Assembly (NCBI RefSeq): GCF_003855255.1
Contig: NZ_CP034072.1
Location: 4,893,208-4,957,207 of the forward strand
DNA from: Mycolicibacterium nivoides
GTDB lineage: Bacteria > Actinomycetota > Actinomycetes > Mycobacteriales > Mycobacteriaceae
DNA length: 64,000 nt
Direction: 5' to 3'
Shown: positions 46,211 to 64,000 of the stretch, piece by piece
Position numbering within the stretch: the stretch's first letter is position 1
Layout of the letters: every line of letters starts with the position of its first letter
Notes under the pieces: model-generated
Seen by the model: the letters and a program-made list of their open reading frames with translations, nothing else
Told to the model about the DNA's origin: nothing
The model's database searches: none
Translations under genes and position numbers: made by a program

Positions 46211-46279
46211 CTTGCTCGTTCCTTCCGTCGATGTGGGCGCCAGCCTATGAACCACCCCGCGCATCCACCGATGGCCGAG

Positions 46280-46314
46280 TTGGACAACTTTTTCCTTCCT
46301 ATTGTCCATATTGG
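46280..46314. promoter_or_regulatory. Inverted repeat operator between aminotransferase and glutamate dehydrogenase genes
   Basis: TTGGACAA (46280-46287) and TTGTCCAT (46302-46309) form an inverted repeat (7 of 8 pairs) with a 14-nt spacer. The right arm runs into CCATATTGG (46306-46314), the same nonamer found in the MocR/EamA gap at 32248-32256. It sits in the 176-bp divergent promoter region. Confidence 0.55.
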
Positions 46315-46386
46315 AGATTCCCGATCGTCGGTGAAGTCCTCGACACTGTGGGCCTCGAACAGCAGCACGTATGGAGAGACACTGTG

Positions 46387-49300
46387 ATGACCTGTGACGC
46401 CCACACCGCCGGGCGGCTTGACCCCGACACGATCGCCGATGCACTCGACCGGATGCAGTCGTCGGACCTGCCGCCGCGCGAACAGATGATCTTCATCGAC
46501 TCTGGCGCGGCACGGACACCTCGCGCTGTCGTGGCCTGGGCGGACCCGGTGCCGTTGCTCACGGAGGCCTGTGCCCTGTTCGAGCACTTCGGCCTTCAGG
46601 TGGCGGACCAGCATCCAGTCACAACGCCCGGTCATCCGTTGACCGTGTCAGTCTTCGATTTCGTCGCCCCGGACGATTGGCGTGCCGGTAGCGAGAAGAA
46701 GCTGGCCGATGCGTTCGCCGCGCGCAGCGCCCATGGTTTCCTGATCGATGACTATGCGCGCCTGGTCATTTCGGCAGGCGTCACGTGGCGCGAGGTTGTT
46801 CTGGTGCGATCGGTCAGCCGGTTCGTGCGCCAATCGGGGTTGGCCATGTCGGACAGCTACGTCCTCGACACCTTGACGGACCACTCCGACTTTGTTGCCA
46901 CCCTGGTCGAACTGTTCGCGGCACGTTTCGACCCCCAACTGTGTGATCGGGAATCACGGGTCGCCGACCTACAGAGCCGGGTGGAGAGCCTCATCGAGGC
47001 GACCACGTCGGTCGACGAGGACCGGATCCTGCGGGCGTTCGCCTCCTTCGTGTCGGCAACTTTGCGCACCAACTGGTTTCAGTGCGATCCCGACGGTCGC
47101 CCCAAACGTCACGCCTCGTTTCTGATCGACTCCTCGAAGCTCCATCCGCGCGGGCCAATCGTGCCGTTCCGAGAGATCTTCGTCGACAGTGACGACGTCG
47201 AGGGGATCCACGCCCGAAGTGGTCCGGTCGCGCGCGGCGGGCTTCGGTTCTCTGACCGCCCTGAGGACTACCGCACCGAGGTCCTGGGGCTGATGAAGAC
47301 GCAGACCGTCAAGAACTCACCGATCGTTCCGGTCGGCGCCAAAGGCGCGTTCGTGCGCAAGAACCCGAGAGTCAGCGTGGAACAGTGCTACCGCATCTTC
47401 GTCGCCGGCCTTCTCGACCTCACCGACAACCTGCTCGACGATCGTGTCTGCCCGCCCGAACATACGGTCACCTACGGTGGAGTCGACACCTACCTGGTGG
47501 TGGCCGCCGACAAAGGCACTGCCCGATTCTCTGATGTCGCCAACGAGTTGGCGGTAAACCGCGGATTCTGGTTGGCGGACGCCTTCGCGTCTGGTGGTTC
47601 GGCGGGATACGACCACAAGAAGATGGGTATCACCGCCCGCGGAGCATGGGTATCGGTGCGTGCGCACTTCGCCGACCTCGGCCGCGACGCCGACGCCGAT
47701 CTCATCACCGTGGTGGGTATCGGCGACATGTCGGGCGACGTCTTCGGCAACGGAATGCTGTTGTCGTCCAACCTCAAACTGGTGGCGGCCTTCGATCACC
47801 GCCACATCTTCATCGACCCGGATCCCGACCCACGGGCGGGCTATGCCGAGCGAACCCGGCTCGCCACAATGGCGACCAGCAGCTGGGACGACTACGACCG
47901 CACTGCCCTGTCCCCAGGTGGTGGGGTCTGGTCGCGCAACCTCAAACGAATCGACTTGCCCTTGATGGCCCGCAAGGCGCTCGGGATCACCGCTGACACG
48001 GTTACCCCCAACGACGTCATCCGGGCCATCCTCACCGCGGATGCGGATCTACTGTGGAACGGCGGCATCGGCACCTACGTGAAGTCCGCGCGCGAAAACG
48101 ACACCGACGCAGCAGATCCAGCCAACGATGCCATCCGCGTCAACGCCGACCAGCTACGGGTGACTGTGATCGGCGAGGGCGGGAACCTCGGACTGACACA
48201 ACGTGCCCGGATCGACTATGCCTTGGCCGGCGGGCGCGTCAACGCCGACTTCATCGACAACGCCGCGGGCGTGGCCTCCTCCGACCGAGAAGTCAACCTC
48301 AAGATCGCCCTCCAATCGGCCCTACGCGCGGACCGCGTCAGCGCTGCCGGACGCGACGAAATGCTGGCCGACTGCCAGGAGGAGGTCGCCACCGCGGTGC
48401 TGCGCGGCTGTGAGAACCAGGTGCTGGCCATCGGTCTGGCCGAAGCCCAAGCCTCTCGGCTGCTCAATCGCCACGAACGACTGATCGAGAACCTCGAGCA
48501 GGTATCCGGTATCAGCCGCGCCGCCGAAATGCTGCCCAGCAGGGCCGAACTCGTCTCCCGCACCCGTGCCGGCAGCGGATTGACGCGTCCGGAGATCGCG
48601 GTGCTGCTGGCGCATTCCAAGAACGTCGTGCGCGACGAGCTGCTGGCCTCCGAGGTACCCGACGATCCGATCTTCTCCACCGCGTTGCGCGATTACTTCC
48701 CCACGCCGTTCCGCATCCACCTCGATGCCGATATCGCTTGCCATCGGCTTGCCCGGGAGATCATCGCGACTCAGATCGCCGACGACCTGATCAACCACGT
48801 CGGTCCCGGCTTGATCTATCAACTCGACGAACGCCTGGGTGTACCTACCCCTACGGTCGCAGCGGCCTACACCGTGGTGCGGCACCTCTTCGGGATCGAT
48901 GAGATGTGGCGCGCGGCGCTGGAGCAGACCGCAGGCGGCCCGGCACAGCGCAGGGTGGCGCTTCACTCGGTACAGCACTTCATCGAGCACACCGCGGGGC
49001 GCTTGTTGCGCCGACACAGCGGCAACCTCGACATCGGCACCACCATCGCGGCCTACCGGCGACACGTCGACACCCTGCACCACCACCGCCATGACTTCGG
49101 CGACCGTTGGCCGCGGCTGCGCCCGGACTCATTGGACCTCAGCCGAACCGCCACCAGAATGGGTGTCGATATCACCGTGGTGGCCGGCGTGTTCCTCGCG
49201 ATCGATGACCAACTCGACCTGGACTGGATCGAACGCGGACTGCGGGCGCACACCACGTCGACCTGGTGGGACGCCATGGGTACCAGCGCTATCCGCGACC

Positions 49301-49527
49301 AGTTCGCCGACACCCATCATCAGCTGACGGCCGCGGTGCTGAGTCTGGCCGCCGACCCCGAGGAAGCCCTGCGTGCGTGGCGGAACGGCGCGGCGACGGC
49401 GCTGGCGCGATTCGACCAGATGCGGGCCGAACTGGGCCGCGACAGCGTCATCGACGTTGCCCGCGGGGCCAGTGTCCTAGCCGAACTCGCGCTACTCCTT
49501 CGCCACACCGACTGCCTGGTCCGCTGA
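46387..49527 (+). CDS. NAD-specific glutamate dehydrogenase, short form of the large class
   Basis: Deaminates glutamate to 2-oxoglutarate and ammonia with NAD. The 1046-residue protein starts at ATG 46387 (or GTG 46384). The catalytic core begins near residue 270 with ARSGPVARGGLRFSDRPEDY, followed by LMKTQTVKNSPIVPVGAKGA. VVAADKGTARFSDVANELAV and ITVVGIGDMSGDVFGNGMLL form the dinucleotide-binding domain. The helical C-terminal region extends to the end. The ~180-kDa mycobacterial Rv2476c-type enzyme has ~1600 residues, so ~550 N-terminal residues are absent here. It is divergent from the aminotransferase operon and probably co-regulated. Confidence 0.88.
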   Translation: MTCDAHTAGRLDPDTIADALDRMQSSDLPPREQMIFIDSGAARTPRAVVAWADPVPLLTEACALFEHFGLQVADQHPVTTPGHPLTVSVFDFVAPDDWRAGSEKKLADAFAARSAHGFLIDDYARLVISAGVTWREVVLVRSVSRFVRQSGLAMSDSYVLDTLTDHSDFVATLVELFAARFDPQLCDRESRVADLQSRVESLIEATTSVDEDRILRAFASFVSATLRTNWFQCDPDGRPKRHASFLIDSSKLHPRGPIVPFREIFVDSDDVEGIHARSGPVARGGLRFSDRPEDYRTEVLGLMKTQTVKNSPIVPVGAKGAFVRKNPRVSVEQCYRIFVAGLLDLTDNLLDDRVCPPEHTVTYGGVDTYLVVAADKGTARFSDVANELAVNRGFWLADAFASGGSAGYDHKKMGITARGAWVSVRAHFADLGRDADADLITVVGIGDMSGDVFGNGMLLSSNLKLVAAFDHRHIFIDPDPDPRAGYAERTRLATMATSSWDDYDRTALSPGGGVWSRNLKRIDLPLMARKALGITADTVTPNDVIRAILTADADLLWNGGIGTYVKSARENDTDAADPANDAIRVNADQLRVTVIGEGGNLGLTQRARIDYALAGGRVNADFIDNAAGVASSDREVNLKIALQSALRADRVSAAGRDEMLADCQEEVATAVLRGCENQVLAIGLAEAQASRLLNRHERLIENLEQVSGISRAAEMLPSRAELVSRTRAGSGLTRPEIAVLLAHSKNVVRDELLASEVPDDPIFSTALRDYFPTPFRIHLDADIACHRLAREIIATQIADDLINHVGPGLIYQLDERLGVPTPTVAAAYTVVRHLFGIDEMWRAALEQTAGGPAQRRVALHSVQHFIEHTAGRLLRRHSGNLDIGTTIAAYRRHVDTLHHHRHDFGDRWPRLRPDSLDLSRTATRMGVDITVVAGVFLAIDDQLDLDWIERGLRAHTTSTWWDAMGTSAIRDQFADTHHQLTAAVLSLAADPEEALRAWRNGAATALARFDQMRAELGRDSVIDVARGASVLAELALLLRHTDCLVR

Positions 49528-49553: not shown

Positions 49554-50309
49554 TCACAAAGTGCCGCTCAGCGACACCAACGACCATGGTGTCGCTGAAA
49601 CCGGCAGCGCCGTGGCAGAACTCGGGTTCTCCAGCTTGGATCCAGCGACGTGCTCGGCGTCGTTGGCGACGATCACCCGGCCCTCCGAGTTGGTGAGCGC
49701 CAGCGGCGTGCGATGCGCGGCGAACGTCGGCAACAGTGCGGCGTCCAGTCGGGCCACCGGCACATCGGCCCCTGCCACGCCGATGAATTTCCCACGCTCG
49801 GAGGTCACCGGGACGGCGAACGTACACACGTACAGATCGACGCCGGTGTAGTCCAGGTACGGCCCGTACACCCACCGGGTGTCACGGTCGCGGGGCCCGG
49901 AATACCACTCCATCGTGGAGTAGTCGTAGAAGTACTCGCTGCCCGGATTGAGATCCAGTTCGAGTCGTTGTGCCTCTCCACCGGTTTTGGGATTTGGCTG
50001 CCACCACTCGAGGTACCGAGGGACGTCGGCCAACGCGCCGTCTGCGACGACGAATCCGACCCCGTTCACCAAATGTGCTTGCCGACGCAATTCAGCGATC
50101 ACCGGGTCGCGGAGCGCCGCGAGGTCAGTCGAGGTCGGCCTGGCACCCGAGTCTTCGATGCGGTCCCACAGTGCGCGGGTTGCGACTGCGACCGTGCTCA
50201 GCGAGGCGAAGATGTCCTCGACGAGTGAGGTCACCGCCGCGGACACCAACTCGAGCGCCGCATCGCCGTTCTCGGCGCGAAACGACCCGTCCGTTCCGTT
50301 CGCCATCAT
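49554..50309 (-). CDS. Soluble Cache (PDC)-type sensor protein
   Basis: A 251-residue protein whose middle resembles a Cache/PDC ligand-binding domain: ELRRQAHLVNGVGFVVADGA, YLEWWQPNPKTGGEAQRLEL, EYFYDYSTMEWYSGPRDRDT, TRWVYGPYLDYTGVDLYVCT, TSERGKFIGVAGADVPVARL. Cache domains usually sit outside the membrane in receptors for amino acids or amines, yet no signal peptide or transmembrane helix is present here. It follows the FadR-type regulator gene by 76 bp on the same strand, so it may be an intracellular ligand sensor for it. Start ATG 50309 or 50306. Confidence 0.75.
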   Translation of the reverse strand: MMANGTDGSFRAENGDAALELVSAAVTSLVEDIFASLSTVAVATRALWDRIEDSGARPTSTDLAALRDPVIAELRRQAHLVNGVGFVVADGALADVPRYLEWWQPNPKTGGEAQRLELDLNPGSEYFYDYSTMEWYSGPRDRDTRWVYGPYLDYTGVDLYVCTFAVPVTSERGKFIGVAGADVPVARLDAALLPTFAAHRTPLALTNSEGRVIVANDAEHVAGSKLENPSSATALPVSATPWSLVSLSGTL

Positions 50310-50385: not shown

Positions 50386-51138
50386 TCATGCTCTGGCGAG
50401 CTCCATCCGCAGGCCGATGAGCCGCCGGATGGTCAGCGCGCCGTACTCCTCTGCCAATGATCGCGCGGCCGCCTCATCCCCGGCCTCGATCGCGTCGACG
50501 AGACGGTGATGCGTGGCCGCCTCAACCGCGGGGTCCAACCCCAGCCGCGGCAACCAGACCATCGCCGCCAGTTCAGCCTGAATGTTCACCTCTGCGCGGG
50601 TGAGGCGAGCGGATTGCGAGCACACCGCGATCTCGATCTGGAATCGGCTGTCCGCGCGGCGGCTGGCGATCGCGTCCTCGCTGACAGCAAGACGATCCGC
50701 CAACGCCCGAAGGCGAGCGACGTCGGCTGCGACGGCACGGCGGGTCGCGAGAACCGCGGTGGCACCGGCGACCGCGAAGTGCTCGTCCCCGAGATCACGC
50801 AACCCCTCGACGGTCAGCTCCTGCAGCAGTGCCAACGATCGAGTGTGCACGTCTTCAGCTGAGGCACGCACGAAGCTTCCGCCGCCGCGCCCTCTCTTCG
50901 TCACCACCAGCCCCTGCTCGCGCAAGATGGCCAGCGCTTCCCGCAAAGTCATGGTCGATACGCCCAGTTGGGTGGCCAGATCGATCTCGCTCGGAAGCTG
51001 CTCCCCGTCGGAGATCACCCCGAGGCCGATCGCGGCAGAGATCCGCGCCACCACGGCATCCGTGCGTGGGCCGCTGCCCGCCAGCGGCGACAACACAGCC
51101 CCCACCGCGGTCAGGCCGCGCAACTGTTCGACCGCCAC
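50386..51138 (-). CDS. GntR/FadR-family transcriptional regulator
   Basis: A 250-residue regulator starting at GTG 51138, with a perfect AGGAGG five nt upstream. The winged helix spans ~28-95 (VVARISAAIGLGVISDGEQL, EIDLATQLGVSTMTLREALA, REQGLVVTKRGRGGGSFV). The C-terminal FCD/FadR helical domain spans ~110-245 (ARLRALADRLAVSEDAIASR, DSRFQIEIAVCSQSARLTRA, THHRLVDAIEAGDEAAARSL). It is divergent from the permease operon at 51250 and likely represses it until an amine or organic acid is bound. Confidence 0.9.
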   Translation of the reverse strand: MAVEQLRGLTAVGAVLSPLAGSGPRTDAVVARISAAIGLGVISDGEQLPSEIDLATQLGVSTMTLREALAILREQGLVVTKRGRGGGSFVRASAEDVHTRSLALLQELTVEGLRDLGDEHFAVAGATAVLATRRAVAADVARLRALADRLAVSEDAIASRRADSRFQIEIAVCSQSARLTRAEVNIQAELAAMVWLPRLGLDPAVEAATHHRLVDAIEAGDEAAARSLAEEYGALTIRRLIGLRMELARA

Positions 51139-51184
51139 TGTTCCTCCTGCCAGGGCAATTTCGACGATAGTACGCGATAAGGCT

Positions 51185-51212
51185 TGAACTATGAACTATG
51201 GTCCTTTATGTT
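51185..51212 (+). promoter_or_regulatory. Promoter of the amine operon with tandem AACTATG repeats
   Basis: TTGAAC (51185-51190) and TATGTT (51207-51212) with a 16-nt spacer resemble a housekeeping promoter. Two adjacent copies of AACTATG (51187-51193, 51194-51200) fill the spacer and are a candidate FadR-type operator. Confidence 0.5.
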
Positions 51213-51249
51213 TTAATTCTATGGCTTGCCTCACAGCCCGCCCCTGAAC

Positions 51250-52788
51250 ATGGCCCCTGACACAGAAAGCCGGCCGCCTATGTCGACATCTCCCGACCCG
51301 CACGACGAGGACCACGCGCAACTCGCCGCGCTCGGCTTCCAGTCCGAGTTCAAGCGAGACATGAGCCTTTGGGCCAACTTCTCGCTCGGCTTCACCTATC
51401 TCTCGCCGGTCGTCGGCATCTACACCGTCTTCGCATTCGCGCTCGCCGCGGCCGGCCCGCCGATGATCTGGAGTCTGTTGATCGCCGGCGTCGGCCAGCT
51501 GCTGGTCGCGCTGGTGTTCAGCGAGATCGTCGCCCAATTCCCCGTCGCCGGCGGCGTGTACCCGTGGGCCCGCCGACTGTGGGGCCGCAAATGGGCATGG
51601 ATGACCGGTTGGGTGTACATCTTCGCGCTGCTGGCCACCATCGCCGGCGTGGCCTACGGCGCAGGACCGTTCGTGGCGACCGTCTTCGGTTTCACCTCAA
51701 CGGTTTACACCACCGTCGTATGCGCACTGATCGTGCTGGTGCTGGCCACCGTCATCAATCTCACCGGCACCAAGATGCTGAGCTATTTCGCGATCTTCGG
51801 CTTCACCGCCGAGCTGATCGGCGCGCTGATCGTCGGCGGGTGGCTGTTGCTCACGCAACGCCACCACGGGTTGGGCGTGCTGTTCGACAGCTTCGGAGCA
51901 CAGGGCGAGCACAGCTTCCTCTACGCGTTTCTCGCGGCCAGCCTGATCGGCGTCTTCCAGTACTACGGATTCGAGGCCTGCGGTGACGTCGCCGAGGAGG
52001 TCCGCAACCCCGGAGTGCAGATCCCGAAGTCGATGCGACGGACGATCTACATCGGCGGCGCCGCAGCCACTTTCGTCTGCCTCAGCCTGGTTCTGTCGGT
52101 CGTGGACATCGGCGCCGTGATCCGCGGCGAGGACGTCGATCCGATCTCGACCGTGCTGGCCACGGCCTTCGGCCCGGTCGGATCCAAGATCGTGCTCTGC
52201 ATCGTGCTGATTTCGTTCGTGTCCTGCGCTCTGAGCCTGCAGGCCGCGGCCAGCCGACTGCTCTACTCGTACGGCCGTGACGGCATGATCGTCGGCTCCA
52301 AGCTGTGGGCCCGATTCGACAAGAAACGCCACGTGCCCCCATATGCGTTGCTCGCCGCGGCGGTCGTCCCCGCTGCCCTCATCATCGGATCGATCGTCTC
52401 CACCGACGCGCTGACCAAGCTCATCAGCTTCGGCTCGGTCGGCATCTACATCGCTTTCCAGATGGTCGTGTTCGCCGCCTTGCGGGCACGCATCAAAGGA
52501 TGGAACCCGAGTGGGAAGTACCGCCTCGGCCGATGGGGAATGCTGGTCAACGTTGGCGCCCTGGTCTACGGAGTGGCAGCCATCATCAACATCTGTTGGC
52601 CCCGGACGCCCGAAGCGCCCTGGTACGACAACTACATCGTGCTGCTGATGTCAGGCATCGTCATCGGGCTGGGTCTGCTCTACATGGCCATCGTCCGCTC
52701 CCATTCCAACGGCACCACGCCACACGCCGACGCGATCCCTGGGCCGGCTAGCTCACCGGATAAACCCGTTGTGGCGCAGCCTGTTTAG
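51250..52788 (+). CDS. APC-family amino acid/amine permease
   Basis: Membrane transporter of about 512 residues with 12 predicted helices, such as LWANFSLGFTYLSPVVGIYT, MIWSLLIAGVGQLLVALVFS, MTGWVYIFALLATIAGVAYG, and IVLCIVLISFVSCALSLQAA. The consensus FSEIVAQFPVAGGVYPWARR and EACGDVAEEVRNPGVQIPKS are typical of APC amine/amino acid importers (GABA permease and PuuP relatives). ATG 51250 or 51280 could be the start. First gene of the plus-strand catabolic operon, so it most likely imports the substrate. Confidence 0.9.
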   Translation: MAPDTESRPPMSTSPDPHDEDHAQLAALGFQSEFKRDMSLWANFSLGFTYLSPVVGIYTVFAFALAAAGPPMIWSLLIAGVGQLLVALVFSEIVAQFPVAGGVYPWARRLWGRKWAWMTGWVYIFALLATIAGVAYGAGPFVATVFGFTSTVYTTVVCALIVLVLATVINLTGTKMLSYFAIFGFTAELIGALIVGGWLLLTQRHHGLGVLFDSFGAQGEHSFLYAFLAASLIGVFQYYGFEACGDVAEEVRNPGVQIPKSMRRTIYIGGAAATFVCLSLVLSVVDIGAVIRGEDVDPISTVLATAFGPVGSKIVLCIVLISFVSCALSLQAAASRLLYSYGRDGMIVGSKLWARFDKKRHVPPYALLAAAVVPAALIIGSIVSTDALTKLISFGSVGIYIAFQMVVFAALRARIKGWNPSGKYRLGRWGMLVNVGALVYGVAAIINICWPRTPEAPWYDNYIVLLMSGIVIGLGLLYMAIVRSHSNGTTPHADAIPGPASSPDKPVVAQPV

Positions 52789-52826
52789 CCGACCAGCCAG
52801 ATTACGATCTCCAAAGGAGAGTCACC

Positions 52827-54038
52827 ATGACTCCGAACACCATCACCGCCAACACTGACACCGAGGCCCCGCGCCTGAACGTGACCGATCCCTCGTTCTC
52901 GATCACCTCGGCCCTGGTCCACGAGGCCCGGGAAGTCAGCTGGTTCGCCCATACCGAGTACGGGATCGCCGTCCTGCGTTACGACGAGGTCAGCGAGCTC
53001 ATGCACCATCCGAGCCTGCGTCAGGGCAGTGTGCACTGGCCGGCCCACAACGGGGTGACAGACGGCCCGTTCCTCGACTGGTGGAACAGCTGGATCCTGA
53101 ACAAAGAAGGCCAAGAGCACCGGCGGCTGCGTACCCTGCTCAACCCGGCGTTCTCCAAGCGGTTGATCAAGGGCCTGGTACCTCGATTTCAGGCACTGGC
53201 AGGCGAACTCATCGACGCCTTCGCCGACAAGGGTGAGTGTGAGTTTATCGGCGAGTTCGCCGACCCGTACGCCGCTCGCGTCATCGCCATCATGCTCGGG
53301 CTGCCCGAGTCGGAATGGCAGGTCATCGCCCGCGAGTCCGCCACCATCGGACTGGCGATGGGCATCACGTTCAATCAGGAGCTGCCGCGGATCGAGGCCG
53401 CCCTGGCCACGCTTTTCGAGTACGCCGACGCCGTGATCGCCGACCGCGAGGCCAACCCGCGCGATGATTTCACGACGACGCTGGTGCAGGCGAAGAACGA
53501 TGGTGGGCTGTCCGCCGACGAACTGCGCGATGCCTTCGTCCTGATGATCTTCGGCGGTTACGACACCACCCGTAACCAACTGGGCCTGGCGATGCAGAGC
53601 TTCATCGACAACCCAGCTCAGTGGGATCTGCTCGCGCAGAACCCCGCTCTGGGCGGCAAGGCCGTCGAGGAGGTGATGCGGACCAACCCCACGGTCCGCT
53701 GGGTCACCCGCGAGGCAACCGAGGACTTCGAATACCAAGGACTGGCGATCAGCGCCGGAACCACCGTCCACCTGTTCAGCGAGTCATCCGGTACCGATCC
53801 ACGGGTGTTCGGGCCGCCCAGCTTCGACATCGCCGCGGAACGCAAGCCGCACTTCGGGTTCGGTGGCGGGGCGCACCATTGCCTGGGGCACTTCGTCGCC
53901 CGGGCCGACATGGCCGAGGCGCTGCCGCTGCTGGCCCGCCGGCTCCGCGACCCGAAGATGCTCGACGGTGCCGACTGGATGCCCGACTCAGGCAACACCG
54001 GCGCGAACAAGCTCCCGATCAGCTTCACCCCGGCCTGA
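52827..54038 (+). CDS. Cytochrome P450 of the amine operon
   Basis: Soluble bacterial P450 monooxygenase of 403 residues. The I-helix is MIFGGYDTTRNQ (G243-T248 region), the ExxR motif is EEVMR in AVEEVMRTNPTVRWVTREAT, and the heme loop FGFGGGAHHCLGHFVAR has thiolate C352. Conserved EGQEHRRLRTLLNPAFSKRL binds heme propionate. Start ATG 52827 follows CAAAGGAGAG. Encoded between a permease and a glutamine-synthetase-like ligase, it resembles in context the cyclic-amine P450s (PipA/MorA, CYP151) of mycobacteria; the substrate is inferred. The reductase at 57713 is the only redox partner in the operon. Confidence 0.9.
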   Translation: MTPNTITANTDTEAPRLNVTDPSFSITSALVHEAREVSWFAHTEYGIAVLRYDEVSELMHHPSLRQGSVHWPAHNGVTDGPFLDWWNSWILNKEGQEHRRLRTLLNPAFSKRLIKGLVPRFQALAGELIDAFADKGECEFIGEFADPYAARVIAIMLGLPESEWQVIARESATIGLAMGITFNQELPRIEAALATLFEYADAVIADREANPRDDFTTTLVQAKNDGGLSADELRDAFVLMIFGGYDTTRNQLGLAMQSFIDNPAQWDLLAQNPALGGKAVEEVMRTNPTVRWVTREATEDFEYQGLAISAGTTVHLFSESSGTDPRVFGPPSFDIAAERKPHFGFGGGAHHCLGHFVARADMAEALPLLARRLRDPKMLDGADWMPDSGNTGANKLPISFTPA

Positions 54039-54087
54039 GCGGGCCATCCATCCCACCAACCACACTCATCCCGAAAGGTCCGCGTCC

Positions 54088-55473
54088 ATGAGCACAACAG
54101 CGCTCGACCAACACCGTGACGCCAATTCCGCACCCGGAGCCCTCGACGCCGCGCTCGCGGCGATCGAGGAATACGGCGTGGAGTTCGTCTACTTCCAGGC
54201 CGTCACGATCACCGCGAGAGTGGTCGGAAAGGTCATTCCCGCAGACCAATTCGCCCGGCTGGCGACGCGCGGGGTCATGCAGCACCGCACCGCCATCGCC
54301 AACCTGCAGACCACCCGCGAAGGCGTGCTGCTCGGGGGTGGCGTCGGGGCACCCGAGTACTGCGCCGTGCCCGACCTCGATACCTTCTCGGTGCTGCCCT
54401 GGGACCACAAGACCGCACGCGTCTTCTGCAGCCTTTACGAGCCCGACCACGTGATGGTCGATCCCGGCGCTCCCCTACCGACCGACACCCGCGGCCTGAT
54501 GAAGCGACTGCATGCCGCCTTCACCGATCGCACCGGGCTGGAGCTGCGCACTGGGACCGAGCCCGAGATGACCTGGGAAGGACCAGGTTTCACCACGTCG
54601 TCGCGGCCGGACTCAAGCCCCGCCTATCACATCGAGCACCTGGAGCGGTATCGCGCGATCTATCAGAAGGTGATCGCCTACGCGAAGTTCATGGGCTTCC
54701 AGATGGTCGAAGGTGACTTCGAGGACGCCGGCCAGGTCGAGCTCAACTGGATGTACGACCACAGCGACGCAACGGCCGACCGGCTGATGACCTACCGGCA
54801 GATCTGCAAGCAGGTCGCCCGGGAGCTCGGCATTGAGGCGAGCTTCATGCCCAAACCCGGTCAGGGTTACATGGGTAACGGCTGCCACCACAACTTCAGC
54901 CTCTGGCGCGGCGACGTCAACATCCTGGCCGACGAAGGTCGCCACGACCTGCACCTCACCGAGGAGGGGCAGTACGCCCTCGGCGGGCTGCTCACCCATA
55001 CCCCGGGCGCGATGCTGATCATGGGGTCAACGGTCAACTCCTACAAGCGATACTGGGACTCGGGTCAGTTCGCCCCGTCGAAGATCAACTGGGGGCTCGA
55101 CAACAAGACCTGCACGGTGCGCCTGTCGGCCAACGGCCGGCTCGAGTACAAGCTTCCCGATGCCGCATGCAACCCGTACCTGACCCACGCGGCGATGCTG
55201 GCCTCCATCGACGACGGCCTGAAGAACCAGATCAGTCCCGGCGCACCCACTGTCGGCTCGAGCTATGAGTCCACGGAACCCGAATTGTTCGGAGAACTGC
55301 CGCTCACCCTCGGCGATGCGCTGGCCGCGTTCAAGGCCGACGACTACCTGATCAATGCGCTGGGCGCTCCGCTGGGGAACCTGTTGCTGGAGTACAAGAC
55401 CGACGAGTGGGCGCGCTTCAACAGCTCGATCACCGACTGGGAGCGCACGATGTACTGGGAGGACACCCCGTGA
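54088..55473 (+). CDS. Glutamine-synthetase-like gamma-glutamyl-amine ligase
   Basis: ATP-dependent ligase of the GlnA superfamily, 461 residues, likely joining the gamma-carboxyl of glutamate to an amine. Metal and substrate residues are visible in LELRTGTEPEMTWEGP, VEGDFEDAGQVELNWM, the ATP/glutamate loop YMGNGCHHNFSLW, and NKTCTVRLSANGRLEYKLPD with the R-x-E. The N-terminal grasp is short and lacks the adenylylation site of true GlnA. Relatives include PuuA and IpuC. Start ATG 54088. Two gamma-glutamyl hydrolase-fold genes lie downstream. Confidence 0.88.
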   Translation: MSTTALDQHRDANSAPGALDAALAAIEEYGVEFVYFQAVTITARVVGKVIPADQFARLATRGVMQHRTAIANLQTTREGVLLGGGVGAPEYCAVPDLDTFSVLPWDHKTARVFCSLYEPDHVMVDPGAPLPTDTRGLMKRLHAAFTDRTGLELRTGTEPEMTWEGPGFTTSSRPDSSPAYHIEHLERYRAIYQKVIAYAKFMGFQMVEGDFEDAGQVELNWMYDHSDATADRLMTYRQICKQVARELGIEASFMPKPGQGYMGNGCHHNFSLWRGDVNILADEGRHDLHLTEEGQYALGGLLTHTPGAMLIMGSTVNSYKRYWDSGQFAPSKINWGLDNKTCTVRLSANGRLEYKLPDAACNPYLTHAAMLASIDDGLKNQISPGAPTVGSSYESTEPELFGELPLTLGDALAAFKADDYLINALGAPLGNLLLEYKTDEWARFNSSITDWERTMYWEDTP

Positions 55474-56171
55474 CCGAGCCGCTGCGACTCGCCTGCATCG
55501 ACGCCGACGCACCACCGCTGTTCGGGCTCGCGTCGTCCCCCGGCGGCCGGGCCGGATACGAGCCGGCCGTCGCCGAACTCCTTGCGGCCGAACTGGACCG
55601 GGAACTCGAATGGGTCATCATGGCATGGGGCGACATGCTGCCCGCCGCCCGCGACCATCAGGTGGACGGCGTCCTGTGCGGCCAGGGCATCATCCCCGCC
55701 CGCCTGGAGCAGGCCGATTTCACCCGGCCGTACGGGATCTTCCACGAAGGCATCCTGATGCGCCGTGGCGAGGCGGTTCCCGACCCATCGGGTCTGGCGG
55801 GCAAGAGGATCGCCGCGATCCGCGCCTCGGCGAACTACAACCTGGCGTCGTCGTTCACCGGTGCCGAGGTAGTCGAGTTCGAGTCGGAGCACGTCTACGA
55901 GGACATGCTCGCCGCACTGCGCTCGGGCGAGGTCGACGCCGTCTGTGACGACGACGTCGTGTTCGTCCCGCTCGGCGACGCCGACCCGGACTTCGAGCTT
56001 GCGTTCGTCGTCAAGACGAACAACCCATGGGGCATCGCCGTCGCCAAGGACCGACCCGAAACCCTTGCGGCCCTTGATGGTGCACTGTCGAGGATCATCG
56101 CCGACGGGCGGCTGAAGTCCGTGTGGGCGCAATGGCTGCCGACGCTGGACTACCCCTTCGAGGTGAGCTGA
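55470..56171 (+). CDS. Solute-binding (SBP family 3)-like protein without signal peptide
   Basis: A 233-residue protein with the fold signature of amino-acid ABC transporter binding proteins: YEPAVAELLAAELDRELEWV, LPAARDHQVDGVLCGQGIIP, EQADFTRPYGIFHEGILMRR, GKRIAAIRASANYNLASSFT, ALRSGEVDAVCDDDVVFVPL, and AVAKDRPETLAALDGALSRI. It begins at GTG 55470 (overlapping the ligase stop, GTGA) directly with the first beta strand. No signal peptide, lipobox or membrane anchor is present, and no ABC permease or ATPase is nearby. It probably acts inside the cell, as sensor, chaperone or divergent enzyme. Confidence 0.82.
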   Translation: MTEPLRLACIDADAPPLFGLASSPGGRAGYEPAVAELLAAELDRELEWVIMAWGDMLPAARDHQVDGVLCGQGIIPARLEQADFTRPYGIFHEGILMRRGEAVPDPSGLAGKRIAAIRASANYNLASSFTGAEVVEFESEHVYEDMLAALRSGEVDAVCDDDVVFVPLGDADPDFELAFVVKTNNPWGIAVAKDRPETLAALDGALSRIIADGRLKSVWAQWLPTLDYPFEVS

Positions 56172-56172
56172 C

Positions 56173-56889
56173 ATGCGACCACTGATCGCGGTGCCGGGCC
56201 GGCGCGCCGCCCGCGTGCCGATCCTGCGCTTCAGCGCGACGCTGGCCGCAGAGGCCATCTGCGAGGCCGTGTGGGCCGGTGGCGGTGAGCCGGTTGTACT
56301 GCACGGTCCCGGCGGCAATCCGGCCGCCGAGCTGGCCGACCGGCTGGCCCGGTTCGACGGCATCTGCATGCCCGGAGGGGCAGACATGGACCCGCGTCAC
56401 TACGGCCAGGCGCCCGTCGCCGAGACCGAAGACCCGGTCGCGCACCAGGATGCGTTCGACATGGCGGTCATGTCTTGCGCATTGAGCCTCGGCATCCCGA
56501 CCCTGGCGATCTGCCGCGGAATGCAGATCCTCAACGTGGTGCAGGGCGGCGATCTGGTCCAGCACCTCCCGCCGAGCAGCGTCGGACACGGCAACGCCGT
56601 ACACGACGTGACGGTGGCCGAGGGCAGTCGGCTGATCCAGGTAGTGGGGTCCACTCGGGTCCCGGTGTCGTCGTATCACCATCAGGCGGTCGGTGTCATC
56701 GGTGCTAACCTGCGGGTCGCCGCCACCGCAGACGACGGGTGTGTGGAAGCTCTCGAACACACCGGCGGGAATCTGCTTGCCGTGCAATGGCATCCCGAGG
56801 ATCTCCACGCGTCTTCCTCCAGCGATGCCGCACTCTTCGCCGACCTCTCCGAACGAGCCGCAAAATCCAGGATGGAGGCTTTGGTATGA
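56173..56889 (+). CDS. Class I glutamine-amidotransferase-like gamma-glutamyl hydrolase (first copy)
   Basis: PuuD-like peptidase C26 protein of 238 residues that would hydrolyse gamma-glutamyl amides to release glutamate. The catalytic triad is complete: nucleophile C114 in LAICRGMQILNVVQGG, H207 and E209 in LLAVQWHPED. GICMPGGADMDPRHYGQ is the usual substrate-loop motif. It starts at ATG 56173, one base after the previous stop, and its own stop overlaps the next gene by 4 nt. Confidence 0.9.
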   Translation: MRPLIAVPGRRAARVPILRFSATLAAEAICEAVWAGGGEPVVLHGPGGNPAAELADRLARFDGICMPGGADMDPRHYGQAPVAETEDPVAHQDAFDMAVMSCALSLGIPTLAICRGMQILNVVQGGDLVQHLPPSSVGHGNAVHDVTVAEGSRLIQVVGSTRVPVSSYHHQAVGVIGANLRVAATADDGCVEALEHTGGNLLAVQWHPEDLHASSSSDAALFADLSERAAKSRMEALV

Positions 56890-57716
56890 ACAACCCCGTC
56901 GTCCTGCGCGACGAGGTCGAACCGTCCGGCACGCGCACCCGGGAGCCAGGACGGCCGCACATCGCCGTGCTGCTGTCCCTCAACTTCCCCGATCTCACCG
57001 AGCCGGTGGCGGCACTGCACCGGCGCTTCACCCGCACCGCCCTGACGGCACTGGCGGAGCTCGATGCCAGCTTCGAGCTGGTGGACACCTCCGAACCCGG
57101 ATCCGTCGACGTGGTCGTCGACGCCGACGGTCTGCTGGTGCTCGGCGGCGGCGACATCGCCGCAGCCTGCTATGGCGGACCGGACGGAGCGGTGCCGAAC
57201 TCCTACGGGGTCGACGCGGAAGCGGACCGAGTCAGCCTGAAGTTGATCCGGGGCTATGTCGACGCTGGCCGGCCGGTGCTGGGAATCTGCCGCGGCTCAC
57301 AACTGATCAACGTCTGCTACGGCGGCACGATCATCGGTGACATCACCGACTACCAGCTCCACCGCGGCGGGCCGGGCGAACACCTTTTCATCGACGAGAA
57401 GGTCGAAGTACTACCCGAGACCCGGCTGGCCGTCATTCTCGGTGCCGGACCCCTCGTCGTCCGGTCCGGCCACCACCAGGCCGTCGACGACGTGGCAGAT
57501 GAGCTCGCCGTCGCCGCCCGGGCCCTCGACGGCATCGTCGAAGCCGTTGAGCACCCGACGGACTGGGTGCTGGGTGTGCAGTTCCACCCCGAAGATGACG
57601 ACGGGCCGCTGGAACCGCTGTACCAGCTGCTCGCCGGCTTCATCGCCGCCGGCCATCGGCCATCGGCCATGCGATCTTCAGCGCCAGCCGACCAGCCTGG
57701 ACCGGGAGCCCAATGA
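56886..57716 (+). CDS. Class I glutamine-amidotransferase-like gamma-glutamyl hydrolase (second copy)
   Basis: Second peptidase C26/PuuD-like protein, 276 residues. The triad is C135 (LGICRGSQLINVCYGG), H234 and E236 (LGVQFHPEDDDG). Sequence around GLLVLGGGDIAAACYGGPDG differs clearly from the first copy (MPGGADMDPRHYG), so this is an old divergence, not a recent duplication. An extra N-terminal ~25 residues and a Pro/Ala-rich tail are present. It overlaps both neighbours by 4 nt (ATGA). The two may act on different gamma-glutamyl intermediates, or one may be non-hydrolytic. Confidence 0.88.
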   Translation: MNNPVVLRDEVEPSGTRTREPGRPHIAVLLSLNFPDLTEPVAALHRRFTRTALTALAELDASFELVDTSEPGSVDVVVDADGLLVLGGGDIAAACYGGPDGAVPNSYGVDAEADRVSLKLIRGYVDAGRPVLGICRGSQLINVCYGGTIIGDITDYQLHRGGPGEHLFIDEKVEVLPETRLAVILGAGPLVVRSGHHQAVDDVADELAVAARALDGIVEAVEHPTDWVLGVQFHPEDDDGPLEPLYQLLAGFIAAGHRPSAMRSSAPADQPGPGAQ

Positions 57717-58672
57717 TGGAAAACAGCATCGTGGTCCGTATCGCCGAGATCCAGGTCGAGACACCGGATATCCGAGGTTTGCGCCTGGAGCAGCTCGACG
57801 GGTCCCCCTTCAGCGAGTGGCGTTCCGGCGCCCACATCGACGTGACCGGCCCCACCGGTGTGCTTCGCCAGTACTCACTGGCCGGATCACCGAAAGACGA
57901 TTCGTCGATGTGGGTCGCGGTGAAAAAAGAAGGGTCGAAAGGTGGCTCAGCCGCCATGCACGAACTCAAGGTCGGCGACCACCTCAAGATCAGCAAGCCA
58001 CGCAACATGCTCGGCATCGCCCCAGAAGCGACCAAGCACATCCTGATCGCCGGCGGTATCGGCCTCACCCCGTTGATGAGCATGGCGTTCGAGCTGTACA
58101 GCTGGGGCGCCGACTTCGAGCTGCACTACTTCGCGCGGTCACGAGAGGAGATGGCGTTCGACGACTTCCTCACCGAACGAGTCGAATACCGAGACTTCGT
58201 CACTTTGCATATCGGCGTGCCGCGCACCGAGCAACCCGCGCTGTTCCAGCGAATGGCATCGGACACTTCGGCTGATACACACGTATACACCTGCGGCCCT
58301 GAGGGTTTCATGGACCAGGTGGTTGCCGCGTTCAGCCCCGCGATCGGCGCGGACCGCATCCACCTGGAGGCGTTCACGCCGAAGGAAGTCGATACTTCCG
58401 GCGACCGGGCGTTCACGGTCGAACTGAGTACCGGTGAAGTTTTCGAGATCCCGGCCGACCGCTCGATTCTCGACGTACTCGAGGAAGCCGGGTGCGACGT
58501 GTTCAGATCGTGCGGGGAGGGCATCTGCGGATCCTGCGTCTCCGGTGTCGTCGAGGGCATTCCGGATCACCGCGACAACTGCCTGTCGGCAACCGTCAAG
58601 GCCAACAACGAGGAAATGGCGCTGTGCGTATCCCGCTCTCTCAGCGAAAAACTCGTCATCGAACTCTACTGA
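57713..58672 (+). CDS. PDR/VanB-type oxidoreductase with [2Fe-2S] domain
   Basis: A 319-residue NAD(P)H-dependent reductase. The flavin-binding barrel (residues ~1-100) has VLRQYSLAGSPKDDS. The nicotinamide domain has HILIAGGIGLTPLMSMAF and TCGPEGFMDQVV. The C-terminal plant-type ferredoxin domain has cluster ligands C267, C272, C275 and C305 (SCGEGICGSC ... ALCVSR). It can pass electrons from NAD(P)H to an oxygenase without a separate ferredoxin. As the only redox protein in the operon it is the likely partner of the P450 at 52827. It starts with an ATG overlapping the previous stop. Confidence 0.9.
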   Translation: MMENSIVVRIAEIQVETPDIRGLRLEQLDGSPFSEWRSGAHIDVTGPTGVLRQYSLAGSPKDDSSMWVAVKKEGSKGGSAAMHELKVGDHLKISKPRNMLGIAPEATKHILIAGGIGLTPLMSMAFELYSWGADFELHYFARSREEMAFDDFLTERVEYRDFVTLHIGVPRTEQPALFQRMASDTSADTHVYTCGPEGFMDQVVAAFSPAIGADRIHLEAFTPKEVDTSGDRAFTVELSTGEVFEIPADRSILDVLEEAGCDVFRSCGEGICGSCVSGVVEGIPDHRDNCLSATVKANNEEMALCVSRSLSEKLVIELY

Positions 58673-58694
58673 CCACACAGACTGGAGAACTCCA

Positions 58695-60041
58695 ATGAGC
58701 CTGTATCTCGTGACCGACCCGGCCACCGGCGACATCGTCAAAAAGTACCCGACCGCCACCGACGCCGCGATCGGCAATGCCTTGTCGTATGCAGTGACAG
58801 CAAACAAGACGTGGGCACGCGAGACGACCGTAGCCGAGCGCGCGGCCCTCGTCCGTCGCGTCGGCCGGCTGCATGCCGAGCGCGCAGACGAACTCGGCGC
58901 GATCATCGTGCGTGAGATGGGCAAACCGCTCGCCGCCGCGATCGGCGAAGTCAAGTTCAGTGCCTCGATCTACGAGTACTACGCCGACAATGCCGAGGTG
59001 CTACTGAGCGACCAGCCGATCGAATTGCTCGACGGCACTGGCGAAGCGCTGATCAAGAGCAGTCCCTATGGCGTCCTTCTCGGGATCATGCCGTGGAACT
59101 TCCCGGCCTACCAGGTGGCCAGGTTCGCCGGGCCCAACCTGTGTGTCGGCAATACAATCCTGCTCAAACACGCCCCGCAGTGTCCGGAATCGGCCGCCGC
59201 TATCCAGCAGATCTTCGACGACGCCGGCTTCCCAGCCGGGGCGTACGTCAACATCTACGCCACCAACGAGCAGGTGGCCAGGCTCATCGAACACCCACGG
59301 GTGGCCGGGGTTTCGCTGACCGGTTCCGAGCGGGCCGGCGCGGCCGTCGCCGAAATCGCCGGGCGCAACCTGAAGAAGGTCGTCCTCGAACTGGGTGGTT
59401 CCGACCCGTTCATCCTGTTGTCCACGGACGATCTCGATGACACTGTCGCCAAGGCCGCGGCGGCTCGCCTCGACAACACCGGGCAGGCGTGCAACGCGGC
59501 GAAGCGGTTCATCGTGGCCGACGAACTCTACGACACGTTCCTGGAGAAGTTCACCGCCGCCGTGCTCTCCGCCGCCGAGGACATCACGCCGCTGTCCTCG
59601 ATCCTGGCCGCCGACCGGTTGCAGGAGCAGGTCGACAGCGCCGTCGAACAGGGCGCGACGCTGACCAGCGCCGGGGGGCGCAACGGCGCGTACTTCCCGA
59701 CCGGCGTGCTGACGAACGTGAAACCCGACAACGACGTCTACTACCAAGAACTGTTCGGTCCCATCGCGATGGTCTTCAAGGCCGCGTCGGAAGACGAGGC
59801 GCTGGAGCTGGCGAATGACACCCCGTTCGGTCTGGGCTCCTACGTCTTCACCACCGACGCGGAGCAAGCCGCGCGGGTCGCGGCGAAGATTGATGCCGGC
59901 ATGGTCTTCATCAACGGAGTCCAGGCCGACGGTGTGGAGCTGCCCTTCGGCGGCATCAAGCGTTCCGGCTTCGGCCGCGAGCTCGGCACGCTCGGCATCG
60001 GCGAATTCGTCAACAAGAAGCTGATCCGAACGGTCACGTGA
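58695..60041 (+). CDS. NAD(P)-dependent aldehyde dehydrogenase (SSADH-like)
   Basis: A 448-residue aldehyde dehydrogenase, start ATG 58695 (GGAGAACTCCA upstream). Base E232 is in VVLELGGSDPFILLSTDDLD and thiol C266 in RLDNTGQACNAAKRFIV. IMPWNFPAYQVARFAGPNLC and LPFGGIKRSGFGRELGTLGI are typical of the short succinate-semialdehyde dehydrogenase branch. In context it would oxidise an amino-aldehyde or gamma-glutamylamino-aldehyde made after P450 ring opening. Last gene of the operon; no obvious terminator follows in the 197-bp gap. Confidence 0.9.
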   Translation: MSLYLVTDPATGDIVKKYPTATDAAIGNALSYAVTANKTWARETTVAERAALVRRVGRLHAERADELGAIIVREMGKPLAAAIGEVKFSASIYEYYADNAEVLLSDQPIELLDGTGEALIKSSPYGVLLGIMPWNFPAYQVARFAGPNLCVGNTILLKHAPQCPESAAAIQQIFDDAGFPAGAYVNIYATNEQVARLIEHPRVAGVSLTGSERAGAAVAEIAGRNLKKVVLELGGSDPFILLSTDDLDDTVAKAAAARLDNTGQACNAAKRFIVADELYDTFLEKFTAAVLSAAEDITPLSSILAADRLQEQVDSAVEQGATLTSAGGRNGAYFPTGVLTNVKPDNDVYYQELFGPIAMVFKAASEDEALELANDTPFGLGSYVFTTDAEQAARVAAKIDAGMVFINGVQADGVELPFGGIKRSGFGRELGTLGIGEFVNKKLIRTVT

Positions 60042-61180: not shown

Positions 61181-62020
61181 GTGACCACGATGGACCCGCA
61201 GCCAAGCCGTGGACCAGGGGCGCAGAGTGACGCCCTGACTCGTCGGCGGCTGCTGCAGATCAGTGGCAGCCTCGGGTTGGCCGCGACGCTCGGTGCTTGC
61301 GCCGATAACACCGATTCAACTTCGGCGCCCACCGCCCCGTCAACGAACGCCACGCCGGCTCCACTCCCTCAACCGGCCGCCGTCACTGCGCTGCCGCAGG
61401 AGCCGGCCCCGGCCACGACGATGGCCAGTGGGCAGCCAATGGTCCAGATCTGCCGACAGGCGTGGGGTGCGGCACCGGCCCGACCCGGCGGACGTCCGCA
61501 CACCATCACGCGAATGACGTTGCACCACAGCGCTGTTGTTCTCGGCGAGAATCGACTTGCCCCCAGCCGGCTACGGCAGCACCAGCGCTACCACCAGCAT
61601 GACCATGGGTGGATCGACATCGCCTACCACGTCGGCGTCGATCGCAACGGCAACATCTACGAACTACGCACCCCCGAACTCGCCGGCGACACCGCGACCA
61701 ACTACGACCCCGCCGGGCACTTCCTCGTCCTATGCGAGGGCGACTTCGACCAAGAACCCGTCACCGACGCCCAACTCACGGGTGCGGCAACAGCATTCGC
61801 CTGGGCAGCCCAACAATTTCATCTGGCCAGCGGGACTCTCGGCGGGCACCGGGACTTCGCCGACACCTCCTGCCCCGGCGCCAACCTCTACGCCCATCTC
61901 AGCTCGGGTGACCTGCACACACGTATCGATGCCCTCGTCGCCGCCGGGCCCGTCGACCTGCAACGGCTCTGCGGAGAAGAGGCTGCCACCAAAGTCGCGG
62001 GCATCGAAGCAGGTGGGTGA
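61181..62020 (+). CDS. Exported N-acetylmuramoyl-L-alanine amidase-like lipoprotein
   Basis: Peptidoglycan-recognition/amidase_2 domain protein, 279 residues. The N-terminus is both a Tat signal (LTRRRLLQISGSLGLAATLG) and a lipobox (LGAC, C40), so it should be Tat-exported and lipidated. A Thr/Pro/Ala linker (residues ~41-85) precedes the catalytic domain, whose zinc ligands are H115 (RMTLHHSAVV), H223 and C231 (GGHRDFADTSCPGANLY). GWIDIAYHVGVDRNGNIYEL is the family core. It probably cleaves stem peptides from muramic acid. Start GTG 61181 (ATG 61190 alternative). Confidence 0.9.
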   Translation: MTTMDPQPSRGPGAQSDALTRRRLLQISGSLGLAATLGACADNTDSTSAPTAPSTNATPAPLPQPAAVTALPQEPAPATTMASGQPMVQICRQAWGAAPARPGGRPHTITRMTLHHSAVVLGENRLAPSRLRQHQRYHQHDHGWIDIAYHVGVDRNGNIYELRTPELAGDTATNYDPAGHFLVLCEGDFDQEPVTDAQLTGAATAFAWAAQQFHLASGTLGGHRDFADTSCPGANLYAHLSSGDLHTRIDALVAAGPVDLQRLCGEEAATKVAGIEAGG

Positions 62021-63098: not shown

Positions 63099-64000
63099 CT
63101 ATTTCACAACCCGTAGATTGGGCCCAGAGGCAAGGAGTCGCAAACCCAACACACCCGGCGCGCCGGCGGGCACGGTGGGGCTCTCCGGCTGAATCGGTGC
63201 GAGCTGTTTGTAGGGCTGCCCCTGGGCTGGCCGCACGTCGTCCTGCCCCTTATTGGGCCATAGTGACGCCGCCCGTTCGGCCTGCGCGGCGATCGAAAGT
63301 GCCGGATTTACCCCGAGATTCGCAGAAATCGCCGCACCGTCCACGACGTAGAGAGTCGGGTAGTTGTACACGCGGTGATAGGGATCGATCACGCCGGTCT
63401 CGGCACTGTCACCGATCGCCGCACCACCGAGGAAGTGCGCGGTCAGCGGGATGTTGAACAGCTCGCCCCAGCTGCCGACGGCAATGCCGCCGACCTTCTG
63501 CGCCATCTGCCGCGTCGCCTCGTTGCCGACCGGAATCCATGTCGGGTTGGGCCCGCCGTGCCCCTGCTTCGAGGACATGATCCGGATGCCCCCCGGCCCG
63601 CGCTTGGTGAACGTGGTGATCGAGTTGTCCAGGTGCTGCATCACCAGGGCGATCAGGGTTCGCTCGCTCCACCGTCTCGGGATCAGCATATTGAGCAGCT
63701 CAGCCGGCCGGGCACGGCCTTGGCTCAGAAACTGCTTCCACCGCGGCGCGTCGGTGCCCCCTGGGCCGGCGCCGTCGGTCATCAGCGTCTGCAGCAGGCC
63801 CATCGCGTTGGAGCCCTTGCCGTACCGCACGGGTTCGATGTGGGTGTCCGGCGTCGGGTGAATCGACGAGGTGATGGCTACGCCATGTGTGAGATCCATG
63901 TCGGTGGGCACCGTCTTGGTCTGCGCACCGACGATCGACTCGGAGTTGGTCCGGGTCAGCACGCCCAGACGATCGGACAGCTTCGTCAGCTTGCCGGTGT
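63099..64000 (-). CDS. ChoD-like GMC oxidoreductase, C-terminal part (runs off right edge)
   Basis: The C-terminal ~300 residues of a GMC flavin oxidase of the mycobacterial cholesterol-oxidase ChoD type. Recognisable parts are LTRTNSESIVGAQTKTVPTD, LVMQHLDNSITTFTKRGPGG, SWGELFNIPLTAHFLGGAAI, VIDPYHRVYNYPTLYVVDGA and AISANLGVNPALSIAAQAER, the last two being the GMC signature near the active-site histidine/asparagine. The frame is open up to base 64000, so the N-terminal FAD domain lies outside. In M. tuberculosis choD is beside guaB3-guaB2. Here guaB2 is at the opposite end of the window, so this may be a paralogue or a rearranged copy. Confidence 0.88.
   Translation of the reverse strand, partial: TGKLTKLSDRLGVLTRTNSESIVGAQTKTVPTDMDLTHGVAITSSIHPTPDTHIEPVRYGKGSNAMGLLQTLMTDGAGPGGTDAPRWKQFLSQGRARPAELLNMLIPRRWSERTLIALVMQHLDNSITTFTKRGPGGIRIMSSKQGHGGPNPTWIPVGNEATRQMAQKVGGIAVGSWGELFNIPLTAHFLGGAAIGDSAETGVIDPYHRVYNYPTLYVVDGAAISANLGVNPALSIAAQAERAASLWPNKGQDDVRPAQGQPYKQLAPIQPESPTVPAGAPGVLGLRLLASGPNLRVVK

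Follow-up and report, generated by a model that had tools for sequence, protein, structure and literature searches.

A 64,000-nt stretch of the 6.9 Mb single-contig genome of Mycolicibacterium nivoides (here the window) contains a complete operon at 51184–60041 that most likely serves the catabolism of cyclic or secondary amines. Eight genes on the + strand encode a permease, a cytochrome P450, a glutamine-synthetase-like ligase, a solute-binding protein (SBP), two C26 hydrolases, a PDR-type reductase and an aldehyde dehydrogenase (ALDH). Two divergent genes on the − strand encode a FadR-type regulator and a Cache protein, and all ten frames are open and intact. Judged by its sequence, the locus is of the pip/mor kind, but in a variant form that has the PDR-type reductase in place of ferredoxin and a different operator. 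Its pathway is probably a form of the mycobacterial pip/mor (CYP151-type) route by which cyclic secondary amines (for example pyrrolidine, piperidine or morpholine) are broken down. The substrate, the reaction order, the electron flow and the roles of the Cache and solute-binding proteins are what we infer from the findings below.

The P450 (52827–54038, +; 403 aa; Pfam p450) shares 71% identity with P0129, a P450 of M. smegmatis that would be PipA as judged from species and family. The nearest P450 paralog in its own genome is 33% identical, and the operon P450 is therefore the sole copy of its kind there. The closest solved structure is 3p3l (E 3.6e-74), which we take to be AurH of CYP151. 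A tree of 40 rows was built by a quick method with SH-aLRT support, leaving out L067 and L078 (P450 split in two frames), L071 and L088 (near copies) and matches below 45%. The eight rows of the window clade form a clade (100) that the P450 of Gordonia plasmid pGKT2 joins (84, not starred); a larger group of 25 rows (99) encloses both, along with M. smegmatis, M. goodii and further pip-like loci. In M. smegmatis, piperidine induces pipA, and morpholine is oxidized by MorA working with its own ferredoxin and reductase (excerpt of PMC9477822). With the ligase gene 49 nt downstream and a FadR-type regulator alongside, the pip/mor kinship proposed in the first-pass annotation is upheld, as is the cyclic secondary amine among its best substrate guesses.

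Two further P450 observations are incidental. In L067 and L078, the locus P450 gene is broken into two frames, by true loss or by sequencing error. Elsewhere in the window (8943–9269, +), a P450-like stretch that is 31% identical to residues 251–355 of the operon P450 lies in a 249-aa open frame; perhaps it is a shortened P450 gene.

Distribution of the locus was examined in the genus group by searching 396 genomes with P0129 (E ≤ 1e-150) and counting neighbors within 9.5 kb of the P450. There were 46 P450 places in 44 of the 396 genomes. Homologs of the SBP lie near the P450 in all 46 places, of FadR in 45, of the APC permease in 44, and at least two C26 genes on any strand in 44. Cache homologs are found in 42, or in 43 with the window's own, which lies outside the fetched stretch. 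Two hydrolases and an internal SBP were among the reasons for which the layout had been thought undescribed, and they are not borne out as such. In this gene-order search, two C26 genes and an SBP thus proved usual among relatives of this P450, and the absence of ferredoxin and the presence of the PDR-type gene are the clade-specific part. The accessible portions of published pip/mor accounts name just a P450, ferredoxin(s), a reductase, a ligase and a regulator. In wider samples, relatives were found (E ≤ 1e-110) in 5 of 397 order genomes and 3 of 396 phylum genomes, own genome included.

The same ten genes occur in seven named Mycolicibacterium or Mycobacterium genomes (houstonense, porcinum, senegalense, CBMA 247, frederiksbergense, peregrinum and Mycobacterium sp. 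DL99), where the regulator, the Cache protein and the eight operon proteins are 79–100% identical. The gene order is kept in all 11 clade members of the genus sample, which overlaps the seven. Its recurrence at these identities is not a matter of chance.

The absence of a free ferredoxin, also noted at first pass, was confirmed and is the truly distinctive trait. The P450–ligase gap is too small for a ferredoxin gene, and none was seen elsewhere in the operon. In its place stands the PDR-type reductase (57713–58672, +; 319 aa), with flavin, NAD and C-terminal 2Fe-2S parts. Pfam finds NAD_binding_1 at residues 111–203 and Fer2 at 240–308, and the flavin motif RQYS is visible without a Pfam match. 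When the 46 places were sorted by the electron supply adjoining the P450, 16 had ferredoxin only, 8 ferredoxin with a flavin adenine dinucleotide (FAD) reductase, 11 a PDR-type reductase and 11 none. A [3Fe-4S]-type ferredoxin stands beside the P450 in 0 of the 11 clade members versus 24 of the 35 other places, and the PDR-type reductase (>60% identity) in 11 of 11 versus 0 of 35. Among the 11 places with none, three (G033b, G041b and G920) carry a ferredoxin before the ligase elsewhere in the cluster. For the other eight, the six gaps measured are 20–41 nt, leaving no room for a ferredoxin.

The reductase is probably of ring-hydroxylating-dioxygenase origin, as its nearest relatives outside the operon clade (50%, 50% and 46% identical) adjoin ring-hydroxylating-dioxygenase or SDR genes. 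Those at L096 and L100 come after a Ring_hydroxyl_B gene, and those at L096 and L097 after an SDR gene by Pfam; the SDR at L100 was recognized from sequence only. Of two weaker relatives, one (45%, L098) neighbors an FMO-like gene and the other (39%, L099) a P450. When 146 genus genomes were searched with the reductase, 8 had a relative at E ≤ 1e-60. In addition, a PDR-like gene (35–37%) lies within 9.5 kb, on the other strand, in five of the eight ferredoxin-less relatives (G034, G096, G121, G940 and G949, of the L068 type). It was not counted, because at L068 its neighbor is a Metal_hydrol gene, and a TetR gene and an integrase intervene.

A P450 served by one three-domain reductase related to dioxygenase reductases is also found in GcoAB, described as a new two-component class with a reductase resembling BenC (excerpt of PMC6021390). 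The 2Fe-2S domain is N-terminal in GcoB, whereas it is C-terminal, in the PDR order, in the window reductase. No report of the PDR swap was found in the open-licence literature. One P450 family thus runs on at least five supply arrangements, which are ferredoxin alone, ferredoxin with FAD reductase, PDR-type reductase, fused flavodoxin-type reductase and none nearby. Such a range would be useful for enzyme design.

The ligase (54088–55473, +; 461 aa; Pfam Gln-synt_C) is predicted to be a γ-glutamyl-amine ligase. Its best solved relative is the glutamate-methylamine ligase 9qur (6.3e-55), followed by 7cql, which is named a type III glutamate-ammonia ligase and which we take to be a methylamide synthetase. 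Two positions of glutamine synthetase (GS) were compared, namely E327, which presumably shields and helps deprotonate ammonium, and D50, presumably of ammonium binding. In 31 ligases of P450 loci (including L080, whose P450 is ~9 kb off), the E327 position is Phe in all 31, versus Trp in 9qur and 7cql and Glu in the true GSs 8ool and 4lnf. The D50 position is Thr in 30 and Ser in one, versus Asp in 9qur and 7cql. Among the own-genome paralogs compared (L001, L003, L005 and L007, leaving out L002, L004, L006 and L008), the true-GS-like L001 has Glu and Asp at these positions. These changes favor a non-ammonia substrate and an altered amine pocket. In four alphaproteobacterial P450 loci, one ligase has Ser/Thr with Trp and its companion ligase has Asp with Trp. 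GS residue E212 looked changed by eye, but the alignment retains Glu, and the claim was dropped. No report of the D50 marker was found in the open-licence literature. With this shared Thr/Ser-for-Asp marker, the role of the GS-like gene in pip/mor loci becomes directly testable.

The remaining operon genes encode the permease, the hydrolases and the ALDH. The APC-family permease (51280–52788, +; 502 aa; Pfam AA_permease_2) comes first, most likely starting at ATG 51280, which is preferred because relative L049 carries an indel directly upstream. C26 hydrolase a (56173–56889, +; 238 aa; Pfam Peptidase_C26, 163.9 bits) has its Cys in ICRGMQ and a WHPED motif, and hydrolase b (56886–57716, +; 276 aa; 130 bits) has ICRGSQ and FHPED. 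The ALDH (58695–60041, +; 448 aa; Pfam Aldedh, 395 bits) comes last. Among the matches listed (for the ALDH, the best 25 of 42), none of the operon, regulator and Cache proteins reaches a curated NCBIfam cut-off; the ligase, for instance, scores 186.2 bits versus 650 for γ-glutamylputrescine synthetase. With the preferred starts, including those corrected for ligase (54088) and ALDH (58695), gaps are 38 nt (APC–P450), 49 nt (P450–ligase), 1 nt (SBP–C26a) and 22 nt (PDR–ALDH), and 4-nt overlaps join ligase/SBP, C26a/C26b and C26b/PDR. Spacing and intact frames thus agree with the earlier description of eight co-directional genes with 1–49 bp gaps or 4-nt overlaps.

The SBP (55470–56171, +; 233 aa; GTG start; Pfam SBP_bac_3) lacks a signal peptide. 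Its best N-terminal 15-residue mean hydropathy is 0.77 versus 2.05–2.85 in four own-genome paralogs (L114, L115 and L117 were left out), and SBP starts fall a few residues ahead of the first strand. The best 120 of 620 database relatives (E ≤ 1e-20) are 223–252 residues long; the 112 that fit the pattern have 2–24 residues before the first-strand Cys and 8 misfit it, and the Arg motif is kept in 119 of the 120 and the DD(D/E)V motif in all. As far as can be told from these sequences, the SBP is not a transport part, since a signal peptide is missing and neither an ATPase nor a permease gene of an ABC transporter was found in the operon.

All 28 aligned sequences share R78, D160, D161 and the run C70-G71-Q72-G73-I74. 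R78 and D161 align with the Arg and Asp of glutamate- and arginine-binding proteins, which in this family (HisJ/LAO) presumably hold the α-carboxylate and α-amino groups. The AF2 model (pLDDT 90.4) matches amino-acid and opine-type binders, tied within 1 Z, among them glutamate- and deoxyfructosylglutamine-bound structures. A γ-glutamyl amide keeps free α-amino and α-carboxyl groups that fit such a pocket, hence the idea of a cytosolic carrier or sensor. We give an even chance to the SBP binding a γ-glutamyl compound or glutamate in the cytosol. A more daring and rather doubtful version is that it is a moved-in transport receptor for a γ-glutamyl amide, which holds, passes on or reports the intermediate between ligase and hydrolases, in an operon whose P450 was rewired to a reductase taken over from a Rieske dioxygenase system. 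No report of the signal-less SBP of these loci was found in the open-licence literature. The reason for its presence with the P450 in all 46 places becomes directly testable.

The divergent pair, reported at first pass and confirmed here with Pfam domains in both, consists of the FadR-type GntR regulator (50386–51138, −; 250 aa; Pfam GntR and FCD) and the stand-alone Cache protein (49554–50309, −; 251 aa; Pfam MCP-like_PDC_1 above cut-off, dCache_1 below). A candidate FadR operator, TTGAACTATGAACTAT, lies at 51184–51199 (+) and contains GAACTAT twice as a direct repeat. Absent from the first-pass annotation, it matches nowhere else in the genome even when up to 2 mismatches are allowed (0 matches for a reversed-pattern control), and it sits within a promoter-like stretch, TTGAAC-N17-TATGTT. 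The seven named clade loci carry it unchanged, as do the more distant L077, L085 and G1128, and it was found in all 11 PDR-bearing places plus two ferredoxin/FAD-reductase places (G109 and G1128). The operator is proposed because of this conservation and the direct repeat. Inverted repeats in the FadR–APC gap of the window amount to just one 10-nt site, at the APC start codon. A generic sigma-70 scan returned no promoters and one terminator-like site on the − strand, below shuffles.

The Cache gene is single-copy in its genome, and no membrane segment is predicted in the protein; among 26 Cache relatives, the top 19-residue hydropathy is 2.0 versus 2.46–2.79 for APC permeases. The seven top VIA fold matches of its AF2 model (pLDDT 87.9) by Z (20.3–21.0) are PctD, PacA, TlpQ, MkcA, McpX, TlpQ and McpU, and Foldseek ranks McpU with putrescine first. 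The nearest folds are thus receptors for choline, betaine, histamine and putrescine. In an alignment without L009, L070 and L071, compared with the PctD motif (R103, D133, W155, F188, Y189, M215, S217 and D235), the aromatic pair 135/136, Tyr151, hydrophobic 161, Thr163 (for Ser) and Asp182 align, and the cap residues and W155 are unplaced. The protein is likely an intracellular amine sensor partnering FadR, and Cache and SBP appear to be two sensor-type proteins working inside rather than outside the cell.

Intracellular stand-alone dCache_1AM proteins paired with a transcription factor occur in Actinobacteria including Mycobacterium (excerpt of PMC10104139), and the window's lone Cache protein adjoining a GntR regulator in a mycobacterium resembles such pairs. 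Unlike the window's pair, those in the same excerpt are described with no link to a catabolic operon, and the ten dCache targets tested there are sensor kinases, chemoreceptors, phosphatases and cyclases, none of the intracellular GntR-paired type. The window would thus add a named catabolic target, with one predicted operator, to what is known of intracellular amine sensors. If both roles hold, one catabolic operon reuses two extracytoplasmic ligand-binding folds, of SBP and Cache, inside the cell.

These parts could work together as follows. The amine would enter via the APC permease, and the cytosolic Cache protein would bind it and, with FadR, lift repression at the candidate operator. The P450, receiving electrons from the PDR-type reductase alone, would hydroxylate the carbon adjacent to nitrogen, and ring opening would give an amino-aldehyde. 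The ligase would then add γ-glutamate to the freed amine, blocking ring re-closure; we lean slightly towards this placing of the ligase after ring opening. The ALDH would convert the aldehyde to the acid, and one or both C26 hydrolases would cleave the product to glutamate plus an amino acid, which would be GABA, 5-aminovalerate or its counterpart from morpholine. The SBP may hold glutamate or the γ-glutamyl intermediate. P450 kinship, ligase residues and Cache fold matches together support P450- and γ-glutamylation-type amine catabolism, as had been claimed at first pass.

Several observations weigh against this scheme. The true GS 8ool scores almost equal to the amine ligases against the operon ligase (1.1e-52). 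The own paralogs L003, L005 and L007, which are not P450-linked, also have Phe/Trp at the E327 position with Asp at D50, and therefore only the D50 change marks the P450-linked ligases. In a profile search with the Cache alignment, the amino-acid receptor PctA (1.1e-6) scores level with the amine receptor McpX (1.7e-6), and the amine reading of Cache therefore rests on structure and published class. Finally, eight relatives have neither a nearby ferredoxin nor a close PDR, and the genome has 12 other ferredoxin matches, which makes a locally encoded electron donor dispensable and leaves the role of the reductase putative.

The ligase could instead glutamylate the intact cyclic amine first, leaving the P450 to oxidize the γ-glutamyl amide conjugate. 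Loss of the D50 Asp, which methylamine ligases keep, could suit a secondary amine, and the amino-acid pocket of the SBP would suit the conjugate as central intermediate. However, an amide nitrogen hampers α-hydroxylation and ring opening, and the order of ALDH and C26 genes suits trapping of an amino-aldehyde, making this course rather unlikely. MorA and PipA reportedly act on free amines, which also counts against it. With an acyclic substrate (N-alkylamine, dialkylamine or diamine), the P450 would dealkylate and the remainder would be Puu- or Ipu-like. APC, ligase, ALDH and C26 indeed make up the Puu set, and the amine receptors nearest to the Cache fold agree with this, but grouping of the P450 with pip-type P450s and the needlessness of a P450 for a plain diamine make it improbable. 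That the ligase is a GS assimilating ammonia from the pathway is very improbable. Its top NCBIfam model is the type III glutamate-ammonia ligase (albeit at 265.5 bits versus a cut-off of 469.6), and 8ool scores as mentioned, but the residues at D50 and E327 differ in all 31, the genome already has 12 GS-fold genes including L001, and two γ-glutamyl-hydrolase-type genes come next.

We are fairly confident that the PDR-type protein is the electron donor of the P450. The 12 genomic ferredoxin matches and the eight relatives without ferredoxin or close PDR in the operon would also suit a borrowed genomic ferredoxin, with the reductase serving another oxygenase. This is possible but doubtful, as all 11 clade members have the reductase gene between ALDH and C26b (4-nt overlap), and the operon has no oxygenase gene other than that of the P450. 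Likewise, database names of SBP relatives are ABC transporter or glutamine-binding proteins, as expected of an ordinary secreted ABC component with an unrecognized export route. Its N-terminus is not hydrophobic, however, its start overlaps the ligase stop, and the operon lacks the partner genes, so that secretion is highly unlikely.

Compared with known systems, the window is closest to the pip locus of M. smegmatis (PipA CYP151, PipR), with which it shares a close P450, a GS-like ligase and a FadR-type regulator; PipR is classed as FadR-like (excerpt of PMC2018728). The pip locus of the sister species M. goodii (L076) also has APC, Cache, SBP, two C26 genes and an ALDH adjoining APC. The window differs from the pip locus in lacking ferredoxin, in having the PDR-type reductase, ALDH last, APC first and a different operator. 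P450 type and ligase association are as in the mor operon of Mycobacterium sp. HE5, which has a FAD reductase and a ferredoxin where the window has a single PDR-type protein. With the Puu pathway (PuuA, PuuC and PuuD), the shared logic is glutamylation, aldehyde oxidation and hydrolysis, but the window has P450 entry and two hydrolases, and its ligase and hydrolases score far under the curated Puu-family cut-offs.

The Gordonia sp. KTR9 pGKT2 cluster beside xplA/xplB has FadR, Cache, P450 (70%) and ligase (81%) in one run, as in the window. There, the ligase (L009:13331-15775) continues in frame into an XplB-type reductase, 814 aa in total, beside the xplA-type P450 gene. Unlike in the window, no SBP, C26, PDR or ALDH homolog was found alongside. 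The RDX cluster apparently arose from an amine operon resembling the window's. Plasmid p2 of Paracoccus sp. TOH (L087) has the same P450 type, two ligases, an ALDH and two C26-like genes; its P450 (L087:10001-12913) forms a single 970-aa fusion with a flavodoxin/FAD/NAD reductase, whereas the window P450 is unfused. No substrate was found from this plasmid and the literature leads.

On the FadR–Cache side, the operon is adjoined by an NAD-glutamate dehydrogenase (GDH)-type gene (46231–49527, +; 1098 aa; Pfam Bac_GDH_CD). The two are adjacent in 8 of the 11 clade members, window included, and a 60% relative is also close to locus L085. It could possibly recycle glutamate, although its tie to the operon is uncertain. 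Downstream of the operon are an Amidase_2 protein (61181–62020, +) and a GMC_oxred_C-type fragment (63099–63962, −). Incidentally, on the Streptomyces plasmids L089 and L090, an ectoine biosynthesis cluster (ectB, ectA and ectoine synthase) includes a 48% P450 together with a ferredoxin and a FAD reductase.

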